Source: Comamonadaceae bacterium
GTDB lineage: Bacteria > Pseudomonadota > Gammaproteobacteria > Burkholderiales > Burkholderiaceae_C
NCBI GenBank assembly: GCA_027484105.1
Contig: JAIXUG010000002.1
Span: 186,001 to 250,000 of the forward strand
Direction: 5' to 3'
Length of the DNA: 64,000 bases
The notes below the pieces were generated by a model that saw only the letters and a program-made list of their open reading frames with translations, ran no database searches and was not told the origin of the DNA. Of this stretch, positions 54,282-57,472 are shown in pieces; the first letter of the stretch is position 1; every line of letters begins with the position of its first letter. A program made the position numbers and the translations under genes.

Positions 54282-55043
54282 ATGTCGTTGTTCAATTTAC
54301 AAGGCAAAGTGGCGGTGGTGACGGGCTCAAGCCGGGGCATTGGCCGGTCCATTGCCCACCAACTGGCCACGGCGGGGGCCAAAGTGGTGGTGTCAAGCCG
54401 CAAGCAAGACGCTTGCGAAGTGGTGGTTCAAGAAATTCAGGCCGCTGGCGGTCAGGCCATGGCCATAGCGGCCAGCATCTCGAACAAAGAACAACTGCAA
54501 CACCTGATGGCCAAGACCCGCGAAACATGGGGTCCGGTTGATATTTTGGTGTGCAATGCGGCCACCAACCCTTATTACGGCCCGGCCATGGGCATGAGCG
54601 ACGAGGTGTTTGACAAGGTGATGCGCAACAACGTGCTGTCCAATGCCTGGCTGTGCAACCTGGCCTACCCGGACATGAAGGCCCAAAAGGACGGTGCCAT
54701 CGTGATCGTGTCATCCATTGGCGGGCTGCACGGCTCGCCGGTGATTGGCGCTTACAACCTGTCCAAAGCAGCGGACATGCAACTGGCGCGCAACCTGGCG
54801 GTGGAATGGGGACCCGACAACATCCGCGTCAATTGCATTGCTCCGGGCTTGATCAAAACCGACTTTGCCAAGGCCCTGCACGAAGACCCGGTGCTGAGTG
54901 CCAAGTACAACAACGAGACCCCTCTGCGCCGCATGGGTGAGCCCGATGACATCGGTGGCATCGCGGTGTTTTTGGCGAGTGCTGCGGGGCGTTACGTGAC
55001 GGGACAGACCGTTGTGGCCGATGGCGGGATGATGATTCGCTGA
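54282..55043 (+). CDS. Short-chain dehydrogenase/reductase
   Basis: NAD(P)-dependent SDR of 253 residues. The cofactor motif is [18 protein letters not shown], the NNAG-like motif reads [11 protein letters not shown], and the catalytic Ser-Tyr-Lys are in [12 protein letters not shown] and YNLSKAAD. The [12 protein letters not shown] segment is typical. Its substrate is unknown; 3-oxoacyl or hydroxysteroid-type alcohols are usual. A strong GAGGAG ribosome site precedes the ATG. A palindromic element follows the gene by 38 bp. Confidence 0.9.
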
Positions 55044-55081
55044 TTCGCTGTTAATACAGGGTCCGCGTTACAACAGGCACC

Positions 55082-55157
55082 GCTGAGCATGGGCTGGGGC
55101 CGGGCACCTCATGAGGGGGTACCCAAAATCGGTGCACGGCCCCAGCCCATGTTCAGC
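55082..55157. repeat. Palindromic element copy 1 (downstream of SDR)
   Basis: A 76-bp hairpin. The outer stem CATGGGCTGGGGCCG (55088-55102) pairs perfectly with 55137-55151 and extends five more pairs after one mismatch. Inside, a one-by-one mismatch is followed by GCACC/GGTGC (55104-55108 with 55131-55135) and a 22-nt loop starting TCATGAGGGGGTACCC. A second, inverted copy lies at 56024-56095. It has no coding capacity and no T-run. It looks like a mobile or structural repeat of the REP/MITE kind. Confidence 0.85.
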
Positions 55158-55242
55158 TCACAGGTTGATCGCAGGACCCTCAAAGGGCATTTCGAAAACT
55201 GTGACTTATCCAAGGACCCCATTTACCTTCGCCCCCTGAAAG

Positions 55243-55270
55243 CACAAAGCCCGCATCAGCGGGCTTTGTG
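55243..55270. terminator. Hairpin terminator between SDR and sodB
   Basis: CACAAAGCCCGC-ATCA-GCGGGCTTTGTG, a perfect 12-bp stem between convergent genes. T residues are within the stem, and no long T-run follows. Confidence 0.7.
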
Positions 55271-55288
55271 ACTTGAGGCTTGGCTCGA

Positions 55289-55870
55289 TCAGCCGAAGTT
55301 CTTCTCAGCGAAGGACCAGTTCACCAGCTTGTCGAGGAAAGTCTCCACGAACTTGGGGCGCATGTTGCGGTAGTCGATGTAGTAGGCGTGCTCCCACACG
55401 TCCACAGTCAACAGGGCGGTGTCGCCAGTGGTCAGGGGGGTGCCAGCGGCGCCCATGTTGACGATGTCCACCGAGCCGTCGGCTTTCTTGACCAGCCATG
55501 TCCAGCCGGAGCCGAAGTTGCCCACGGCGCTCTTGACGAAGGCTTCCTTGAAAGCGGCGTAGCTGCCGAACTTGGCGTTGATGGCCGCGGCCAGGGCGCC
55601 TGTGGGCTCGCCACCGCCGTTGGGCTTCATGCAGTTCCAGAAGAAGGTGTGGTTCCAGATTTGGGCGGAGTTGTTGTAGATGCCGCCGCTGGATTTCTTG
55701 ATGATCTCTTCGAGGCTCATGTTCTCGAATTCAGTGCCTTTTTGCAGGTTGTTCAGGTTCACGACGTAAGCGTTGTGGTGCTTGCCGTGGTGAAACTCCA
55801 GAGTCTCCTGGCTGTAGTGAGGGGCCAAAGCGTCGATCGCGTAAGGCAGTGCGGGCAAGGTGTGTTCCAT
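55289..55870 (-). CDS. sodB: Superoxide dismutase [Fe]
   Basis: Cytoplasmic iron-type SOD of 193 residues. Metal ligands lie in [32 protein letters not shown] and the signature [13 protein letters not shown]. The N-terminus [20 protein letters not shown] is typical of FeSOD. Fe versus Mn is judged by overall resemblance and length. It lies downstream of xseA on the same strand, separated by 246 bp that include palindromic element copy 2. TAAAAT at 55913-55918 (minus) is a possible -10. Confidence 0.96.
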
Positions 55871-56023
55871 GAGGGGTCCTTTTGTTGTTACAGATTGAAA
55901 AACGACTTCTCCATTTTAGGGGAGCGCAATGCCCCTTACCGTCTTCAGGGTCACTGCAGAGCCTTGCGAGGATGGTGATCTGAAAGACATCGCCTTGGCC
56001 AGGTGGACCCAATGACCCACAGC

Positions 56024-56095
56024 CGTTGTGGGCCGGGGCCTGGGCACCGATTTTGGGTACTCCCTCATGAGGTGCACAGGCCCCGTCCCACGACG
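56024..56095. repeat. Palindromic element copy 2 (between xseA and sodB)
   Basis: A 72-bp hairpin inverted relative to copy 1. The stem CGTTGTGGGCCGGGGCCTG (56024-56042) pairs with 56077-56095 at 17 of 19 positions plus one G-T wobble. The inner GCACC/GGTGC and a mismatch next to it are kept. The 22-nt loop is identical to copy 1 in 21 positions. The outer stem differs from copy 1 on both arms together, so pairing is preserved. Confidence 0.85.
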
Positions 56096-56116
56096 TCTGA
56101 CATGTTCAACAAAAAC

Positions 56117-57472
56117 TCAAGGGGCCACGGTCAGCTGCACATCCCCATCTGCCAAAGTCGCTCGAACCGCTTGGCCCGGTTGAAACTGCGCGGCGTGGGT
56201 CAAAGCCTGCCCGTTGTCGTCGCTCAGCCAGGCATAACCACGCTCCAGCACCCGGTGTGGGTCCACCGAAGACAAGCGCAAAGCAGCGCGCTCCAGTCGC
56301 TGCGCGCGTTGCGGCACCTGCTGAGCCCGGTTGAAACCCAAACGGTCATTCAGGCGCTCCAACTTGTGACCGCTGTCCCTCAACTCGCTTTGTGCACCGG
56401 CTTGTAAACGGTGCGCCAGTTGATCCAGCCATTGCCGGTGCTGGCCCAGCACAGCTTGCGGTCGGCTCAAACGGACAGCTACGGCTGTCAGACGCTGGGC
56501 TTGGCGGTCTTGCTGACGCGCCAGCCCCACGCCCCAGCGTGCGGCCACATGGTCCAGCCGCTGGGCCTGACGGTCTTGCTGGCGCAACAGCCCCCGCTTC
56601 AGCCGGTGCTCCAACACGCTCAAGGCCTCCAAGTCCACCCCTCGATCGTGCGCGGCCATCTCGGCCGCTGCCGTGGGCGTTGGAGCGCGCACATCGGCCA
56701 CAAAATCGGCGATGGTGAAGTCGGTCTCGTGACCCACGCCGCAAATGAGCGGCACGGGACTTTGGGCAATCGCACGGGCCAAGTTTTCGTCGTTGAAGGA
56801 CCACAGATCTTCCAAGGAGCCACCACCGCGCACCAAGAGGATCACGTCCACAGGCGGGCTCAGAGGGTTGTCCTCGGCGGTGAAGGCGTACAGGCTTTGC
56901 AGAGACTGTGCCAACATGGCAGCTGCCCCCGCCCCTTGCACCAGGGCCGGGACCATCACGACCGGAATGTGCGGCACGCGCCGCTGCAAGGCGGTGACCA
57001 CATCGTGCCAAGCGGCTGCACCCAGCGACGTGACCACCCCTATGGCACGGGGCCGGGCTGGCAATTCACGCTTGAGCGCAGGATCAAACAAGCCTTCAGA
57101 CTCCAATTTGGCCTTGAGCCGCAAGAATTGCTCAAACAGCGCACCCTGCCCCGCCCGACTCATGGACTCGACCACCAACTGCAAGTCGCCCCGGGCCTCG
57201 TAAACCCCTAAGCGGCCCCGCACCTCGACCAGTTCACCATCTCGGGGCGAAAAATCCAGCAGAGTGGCCGCCCGTCGAAACATGGCACAACGGATCTGCC
57301 CTGTGTCGTCCTTGATCGAAAAATAACAATGCCCACTGGCTGGGCGCGAGAAGCCAGAAATCTCGCCGCGTACCGCGACAGGATTGAACTGTGCATCCAA
57401 ACTGTCAGCCACAGCGCGGCACAGCGCAGAAACTGACCACACCGAGGCCGTCAAATCGAGATTTTCAGTCAT
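56117..57472 (-). CDS. xseA: Exodeoxyribonuclease VII large subunit
   Basis: Catalytic subunit of the single-strand-specific exonuclease. It has 451 residues. The N-terminal OB domain includes VRGEISGFSRPASGHCYFSI KD-type sequence. The catalytic core has IGVVTSLGAAAWHDVVTALQ, LLVRGGGSLEDLWSFNDENL and CGVGHETDFTIADFVADVRA. A long helical region and the C-terminal beta-strands follow. xseB is not in the window. It lies upstream of sodB. Confidence 0.96.
   Translation of the reverse strand: MTENLDLTASVWSVSALCRAVADSLDAQFNPVAVRGEISGFSRPASGHCYFSIKDDTGQIRCAMFRRAATLLDFSPRDGELVEVRGRLGVYEARGDLQLVVESMSRAGQGALFEQFLRLKAKLESEGLFDPALKRELPARPRAIGVVTSLGAAAWHDVVTALQRRVPHIPVVMVPALVQGAGAAAMLAQSLQSLYAFTAEDNPLSPPVDVILLVRGGGSLEDLWSFNDENLARAIAQSPVPLICGVGHETDFTIADFVADVRAPTPTAAAEMAAHDRGVDLEALSVLEHRLKRGLLRQQDRQAQRLDHVAARWGVGLARQQDRQAQRLTAVAVRLSRPQAVLGQHRQWLDQLAHRLQAGAQSELRDSGHKLERLNDRLGFNRAQQVPQRAQRLERAALRLSSVDPHRVLERGYAWLSDDNGQALTHAAQFQPGQAVRATLADGDVQLTVAP

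Follow-up and report, generated by a model that had tools for sequence, protein, structure and literature searches.

A dispersed palindromic repeat family with a fixed internal loop and a freely varying stem brackets sodB in Limnohabitans

The presence of a long hairpin in two inverted copies on either side of sodB raised the question of whether such a pair is a local duplication, part of a mobile repeat family or a structured RNA. We analysed the 64-kb stretch of Comamonadaceae DNA that contains it (contig JAIXUG010000002.1, positions 186,001 to 250,000; here called the window) together with the remainder of the genome and related genomes, using two covariance models, R1, built from copies with the exact loop, and the broader R2. 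As shown in Table 1, the two copies lie around sodB in opposite orientation, as the initial annotation had described, and both fold into the long stem, one-by-one mismatch and GCACC/GGTGC helix proposed there; the limits given at that time, 55082-55157 and 56024-56095, are better set slightly wider. The two strands of copy 1 fold with -60.3 and -63.2 kcal/mol (z of -9.3 and -9.7 against shuffles) and those of copy 2, which retains the remnant of an older left arm, with -53.9 and -48.4 kcal/mol (z of -6.4 and -6.3), while on the strand opposite to the one listed R2 scores the window copies at no more than 22.3 bits. The window has exactly two occurrences of the core CATGAGGGNGTACCCAAAATC, against none expected, and no shuffle attains two. 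Only one base of the 22-nt loop differs between the copies, in keeping with its description as nearly identical; the palindromes noted inside it, CTCATGAG and GGGTACCC, are present in both but are not features of the family, since most copies read CTCATACTGGGGTACCAG there.

Table 1. Features around sodB in the window; for elements and cores the strand is the one bearing CGATTT, the putative functional strand
Feature	Position	Strand	Basis and details
Element copy 1	55081..55157	minus	R2: 55084-55155 minus, 73.5 bits; R1: 55081-55157
Core of copy 1	55108..55131	minus	CGATTT 55131-55126, apical mini-hairpin, CATGAG 55113-55108; sequence and invariant columns of 25 unrelated elements
Outer arms of copy 1	55082..55107 pairs with 55132..55157
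Element copy 2	56022..56098	plus	R2: 56024-56095 plus, 67.9 bits; R1: 56022-56098
Core of copy 2	56048..56071	plus	CGATTT 56048-56053, mini-hairpin, CATGAG 56066-56071; sequence and invariant columns
sodB, Fe/Mn superoxide dismutase	55289..55870	minus	Pfam PF02777/PF00081
Short-chain dehydrogenase (SDR) gene	54282..55043	plus	Pfam PF13561; copy 1 starts 38 nt past the stop codon
xseA, exonuclease VII large subunit	56117..57472	minus	Pfam PF02601; copy 2 about 17 nt past the stop codon
Terminator-like hairpin directly 3' of sodB, outside the element	55235..55278	minus	inverted repeat; kept in all orthologues

When the own genome was searched for the full core with up to three mismatches, only the two sodB copies were returned, which taken alone would have resembled a local duplication. 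An identical loop is present at 16 further named loci, almost all of them from Limnohabitans/Comamonadaceae and all 16 adjoining sodB, and the genus name Limnohabitans used here is based on such named loci. However, R1 revealed many further copies elsewhere, and R2 detected nine in the own genome: two by sodB, three at C7:199 kb, three in a uvrA-type gene at C7:424-428 kb and one weak copy at C10:82 kb. Two copies only, with no covariation, had been named in the initial annotation as the outcome that would speak for a local duplication without a wider role, and this is clearly not what we found: the nine copies, their distribution over 17 genera and the strong covariation described below refute a chance duplication around sodB, to which we assign practically no probability, and the genome and family searches bear out the dispersed repeat family that had been suspected.

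A core pattern matched in 82 of 90 genomes of the genus and, across the family, in 34 of 401 genomes and 17 of 141 genera, at 1-60 copies per genome, while the reversed pattern used as a control gave no match in either search. The 60 copies belong to genome G154, in which R2 has 62 matches. R2 found no element in about 95 genomes of the order's other families. A single core-pattern match outside the family, in G648, has a short stem overlapping a gene and was taken as chance, as were nine matches in viral contigs, none of them with a paired stem; among plasmids, the G154 units had no match and the own-genome copies one, also judged to be chance. Within the genomes searched, the element family is confined to the Limnohabitans/Comamonadaceae family, and the hairpins on either side of sodB are best explained as two of its old, fixed members. 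One sodB locus, L017 (CALQKH020000002.1), comes from an assembly labelled Akkermansia muciniphila; its gene order is that of Limnohabitans, the proteins around sodB are 90-98% identical, and the contig is probably mislabelled or contaminated.

Near-identical copies dispersed in unrelated flanks, as in MITEs and other mobile repeats, are found in G154, where the copies recur as units of two inverted elements with a palindromic spacer between them and the aligned units have unrelated surroundings, and at locus L165 of G019, which has four near-identical inverted pairs. No target-site duplication was seen; the orthologous sites were decayed or deleted, with no clean empty ones among them, and GGGGTCAG repeats confounded the flank search. 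Among 191 intergenic elements, 118 are in tandem, 63 in convergent and 10 in divergent gene contexts, the divergent ones being fewer than the 62 among 300 regions in the same loci (binomial p 3e-9, a guide only because the elements are related). Inverted pairs 35-100 nt apart are common and lie closest to stop codons, the median distance to the stop codon of the gene in CTCAT sense being 35 nt. The three copies in the uvrA-type gene preserve its reading frame; they lie in both orientations in the gene for a UvrA-type protein of double length (2056 aa; L076:484-6654 on C7), and relatives (L081, L082, L086) have two to four of them. As for L165, its four pairs stand between blocks of genes on the upstream side of an aldehyde-oxidase-like locus (L165:4852-10772), whose content is not the same in L169 of the close relative G007; genes may be gained and lost here as at a hot spot. 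We considered integron-like cassettes for this array and found no support for them, the blocks being in both orientations with no conserved recombination boundary to be seen.

What unites these copies is a small fixed part. Twenty-five elements, one per unrelated-arm group, align without gaps and share the invariant columns CGATTT, GG-TAC, CC and ATGAG, the fixed part being an internal loop, 5'-CGATTT ... YATGAG-3', between a free outer helix of about 25 bp and a free apical hairpin. The apical hairpin, too, has been replaced in G163 and a few further genomes (TTGGCCGCGCAGCGGACGG and others), where only 5'-C GAUUU / YAUGA G-3' stays fixed. On the CGATTT strand the internal loop opens with tandem G.A pairs, and about half of the copies have a second G.A tandem, which lies outward of the first by one base pair and reads TC/TC on the opposite strand. 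Although tandem G.A is also present in a K-turn, the loop has no 3-nt bulge, which makes that assignment improbable. Searching the window with Rfam 15 in gathering and E-value modes returned only tRNAs, along with chance microRNA hairpins below threshold.

The stems, in turn, vary and yet stay paired. Over the 25 unrelated stems, 93.1% of cells pair compared with 53.0% in shuffles, covariation is 0.986 against 0.192 +/- 0.018 (0 of 500 shuffles) and double changes number 275 against 81, while shifting the partner by one column lowers pairing to 39-46%. The outer helix and the inner stem both covary strongly, and the covariation exceeds composition and phylogeny controls. Left arms of different groups have a mean identity of 33%, but each is Watson-Crick paired with its own right arm at 90% of positions, compared with 35% when right arms are swapped; likewise, among changes relative to the nearest relative, 98 double changes keep Watson-Crick pairing and 7 do not. 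The initial annotation was thus right both in seeing a fixed loop on a variable stem and in taking the changes in the outer stems for genuine compensation.

Such covariation could also have a purely replicative origin. Homogenised arms and inverted spacers are known outcomes of template switching in replication (PMC8604942), so that part of the covariation may stem from it. Acting alone, with no structural selection, it would mimic compensatory change, and the sodB region does preserve traces of the kind expected, namely an exact core flip between L030 and L034 and the older left arm in copy 2. Nevertheless, the process has no reason to favour G.U over A.C on a strand defined by the core, it leaves the invariant internal loop and the conserved stem length unexplained, and the adjacent GGGGTCAG arms show no such bias; we therefore regard template switching as the sole cause as improbable. 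It can supply part of the covariation and cannot produce the strand bias.

Comparison of orthologous loci revealed both persistence and turnover. Through most of the genus the sodB pair has kept its position: among the distinct sequences of the aligned intergenic regions, copy 1 can be recognised in 16 of 21 and copy 2 in 22 of 24, and arms and core are 80-97% identical there against 48-59% for the flanks. As to whether sodB orthologues lack the copies, a check proposed in the initial annotation, most carry the pair and some are without one copy through deletion or decay (copy 1 in L038, L028 and L029; copy 2 in L096); the sodB neighbourhood does not define the element family. At the xseA site, 4 of 22 genomes have a core that was inverted in place. 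In L030:1502-1577, compared with L034, the inversion of the core is exact and arms and flanks are identical, a case of spacer inversion found in nature.

When a transition creates a mismatch in a perfect palindrome, the pair is A.C if read on one strand and G.T if read on its complement, so that the imperfect pairs can reveal which strand is under selection. Read on the CTCAT strand, all stems together have 120 A.C and 14 G.T; counted once per stem group, the numbers are 91 to 12 and 86 to 13, the latter with p 2e-14, a value that ignores relatedness and is only a guide because the sequences are related. A.C occurs in 21 of 29 stem groups and G.T in 6 of 29. On the CGATTT strand the imperfect pairs are accordingly mostly G.U (86) against A.C (13), and changes relative to the nearest relative on that strand are C to U (41) and A to G (25) as opposed to G to A (8) and U to C (3). 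We considered cytosine deamination as the source of the bias, but since A to G changes are likewise biased, deamination alone leaves that part unexplained. As a control we counted mismatches in the GGGGTCAG arms that enclose nested copies in genomes of low GC content, and at 15 versus 20 the bias was absent. From the G.U excess we conclude that the CGATTT strand has, as far as sequence comparison can tell, been selected to fold as a single strand, and this supports the structured single strand that the initial annotation had offered as one of its options. The folding strand is probably RNA, which is the simpler reading, even though single-stranded DNA would leave a similar bias.

To be explained, then, are the established dispersal, structure, covariation, strand bias, gene-3'-end preference and persistence in place. 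The best reading of the core is a protein-binding motif in RNA (or single-stranded DNA), and we consider it on balance probable that the loop is bound in RNA and the hairpin acts as a boundary or stabiliser at gene ends, with mobility in the past. The working part would be the internal loop on one strand only (minus in copy 1, plus in copy 2), to which a putative protein would bind in single-stranded form, most probably in RNA that arises when transcription continues beyond the ends of genes; the long outer helix would present and stabilise the loop, and the hairpin may serve as a 3'-end stop, a stabiliser or an insulator between neighbouring genes. The past spread would have been due to a putative trans-acting enzyme, and template switching would keep the arms alike and sometimes flip the core in place. 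Against this reading, the CGATTT strand has no consistent sense in tandem regions (68 antisense, 50 sense), core flips are tolerated at the xseA site, and in the youngest multi-copy class, that of the nested copies, the bias is not visible (5 versus 3, too few mismatches to show it). Among the genomes searched, we found neither a binder nor a mobilising enzyme for the element.

Two simpler roles at gene ends were weighed as well. That the element serves the nearest upstream gene as part of a sense 3' UTR was rejected, since the strand bias indicates the other strand; in tandem contexts CGATTT is antisense as often as sense, and at sodB it is not on the strand of the nearest upstream gene. Intrinsic terminators would account for GC-rich hairpins near stop codons, but no T-run follows the hairpin on either strand, sodB has a conserved terminator hairpin of its own (Table 1) and a terminator does not need a fixed loop, which makes this identity very unlikely.

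A stronger competitor is a REP/REPIN-type DNA element, whose single-stranded hairpin would be recognised by an HUH nuclease (Y1/RAYT or similar), so that the bias would reflect recognition of one strand without any use to the host. REPs, too, are reported to form inverted pairs, to lie at 3' ends or between convergent genes and to insert into uvrA (PMC3733652), and TnpA-REP binds just one strand of folded DNA (PMC8266576). Moreover, among the 401 family genomes a Y1 gene is present in 32 of 34 carriers against 262 of 367 non-carriers (p 0.002); counted by genus, however, the association vanishes (15 of 17 versus 105 of 124, p 1.0). No Y1 gene was detected in the element-bearing G163 (complete, with 13 copies), G196 and G369, and, conversely, some Limnohabitans genomes without a core-pattern match still carry one, as do G071 and G074, which have no R2 match. 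Every good-quality genome of the genus has a Y1 gene, usually in single copy and of about 231 aa, which is flanked by inverted TTAATTGGGGTCAGATC repeats; these belong to the TIR type that is described for TIRYT genes and has the motif GGGGWSAS. Within 1.4 kb of the Y1 genes the element core was not found, the flanks consisting of GGGGTCAG repeats. A GTAG or CGTC tag is absent from the hairpin base, and when 29 stem clusters are compared, their flanks have no tetranucleotide in common. Because of the foreign flanking repeat, the missing tags and the three carriers without a detected Y1 gene, membership in the RAYT-REP class fails on the defining features tested, Y1/RAYT is not supported as the mobiliser, and the suggested recognition by such a transposase was not upheld. 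Mobility alone also fails to explain paired single orthologous copies amid decaying flanks, and overall we regard a nuclease-recognised DNA element with no host use as unlikely, albeit deserving more weight than template switching alone. The Y1 gene of the genus is apparently a TIRYT-type system kept by vertical descent. In the own genome it is an IS200-like gene on C2 (L204:1186-1881), and TTAATTGGGGTCAGATC inverted repeats are present at nearly all loci examined (L186-L210). The palindromes at L168:11875, L171:3057 and L177:10025 are nested: the element forms the centre of GGGGTCAG palindromes, and an element stem has a second GGGGTCAG palindrome where its core would be, which gives the impression that insertions were aimed at the tips of hairpins.

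What normally identifies a palindromic repeat in bacteria is a conserved stem with a terminal tag; in the present family the reverse holds, the stem being free and a small internal loop fixed. Like REP, BIME and REPIN sequences, it consists of short palindromes, often in inverted pairs, that are intergenic, mostly in convergent or tandem contexts, sometimes in uvrA-type genes, and hairpin-forming in a strand-specific manner (PMC3733652, PMC8266576). Unlike these GTAG-tagged, RAYT-associated repeats, however, it has no GTAG at its base, its conserved part is an apical internal loop, and it does not lie beside a Y1 gene and occurs also where none is detected; in place of the common stem consensus over 20-40 bp expected of REPs it has stems of about 25 bp, compared with less than 20 in REP, and left arms that are on average only 33% identical. 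The CGTC-tagged REPs (dRS3 of Neisseria, RPE-4 and RPE-6 of Rickettsia) are likewise palindromic, have no known dedicated transposase, form inverted dimers and in part lie in coding genes, but have 8-9 bp stems and the terminal CGTC tag (PMC3733652). Rickettsia RPE-1 is also a hairpin element located in frame within protein genes (PMC3733652); it is set apart by description, belonging to another organism, whereas the present element is mainly intergenic. As to the TIR palindromes of TIRYT genes, in whose GGGGTCAG centre the core nests in low-GC Limnohabitans, their sequence is different, most copies including the sodB pair have no GGGGTCAG, and the nested outer arms are unbiased. BRE, the Beta-proteobacterial repeat element (Hot et al. 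2011, PMC3110155), resembles the element in being about 75-91 bp long, GC-rich, intergenic and intragenic, and present in Bordetella and several Comamonadaceae including Polaromonas; it is reported there in tandem arrays and was detected through its overall similarity, something that freely varying stems would not yield. The distinction from the BRE of Bordetella is drawn from that description, the two may be the same element, and BRE is the main ground for caution about the novelty of ours.

The best reading is that the element is a REP-like yet separate repeat family, apparently undescribed before. More tentatively, and falling somewhat short of what we would call probable, it may represent an undescribed class of structured RNA, with a 5'-CGAUUU/YAUGAG loop containing tandem G.A on a sequence-free helix, bound by a putative RNA-binding protein, that would mark transcription-unit boundaries at gene ends in an orientation-specific manner and have spread as a repeat. 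The preference for G.U over A.C reveals the working strand without experiment and separates selection for a folded single strand from template switching in DNA, which are usually hard to distinguish in long palindromes. If the binder is found, the effect of 3'-end palindromes on gene expression could be tested directly, and sodB offers a natural case, with copies present, absent or flipped among sister strains. Upstream of sodB, a further inverted repeat, TTTTAGGGG..GCCCCTTA at 55913-55939, is conserved in all aligned relatives and is possibly part of the sodB promoter or a site for its regulator.
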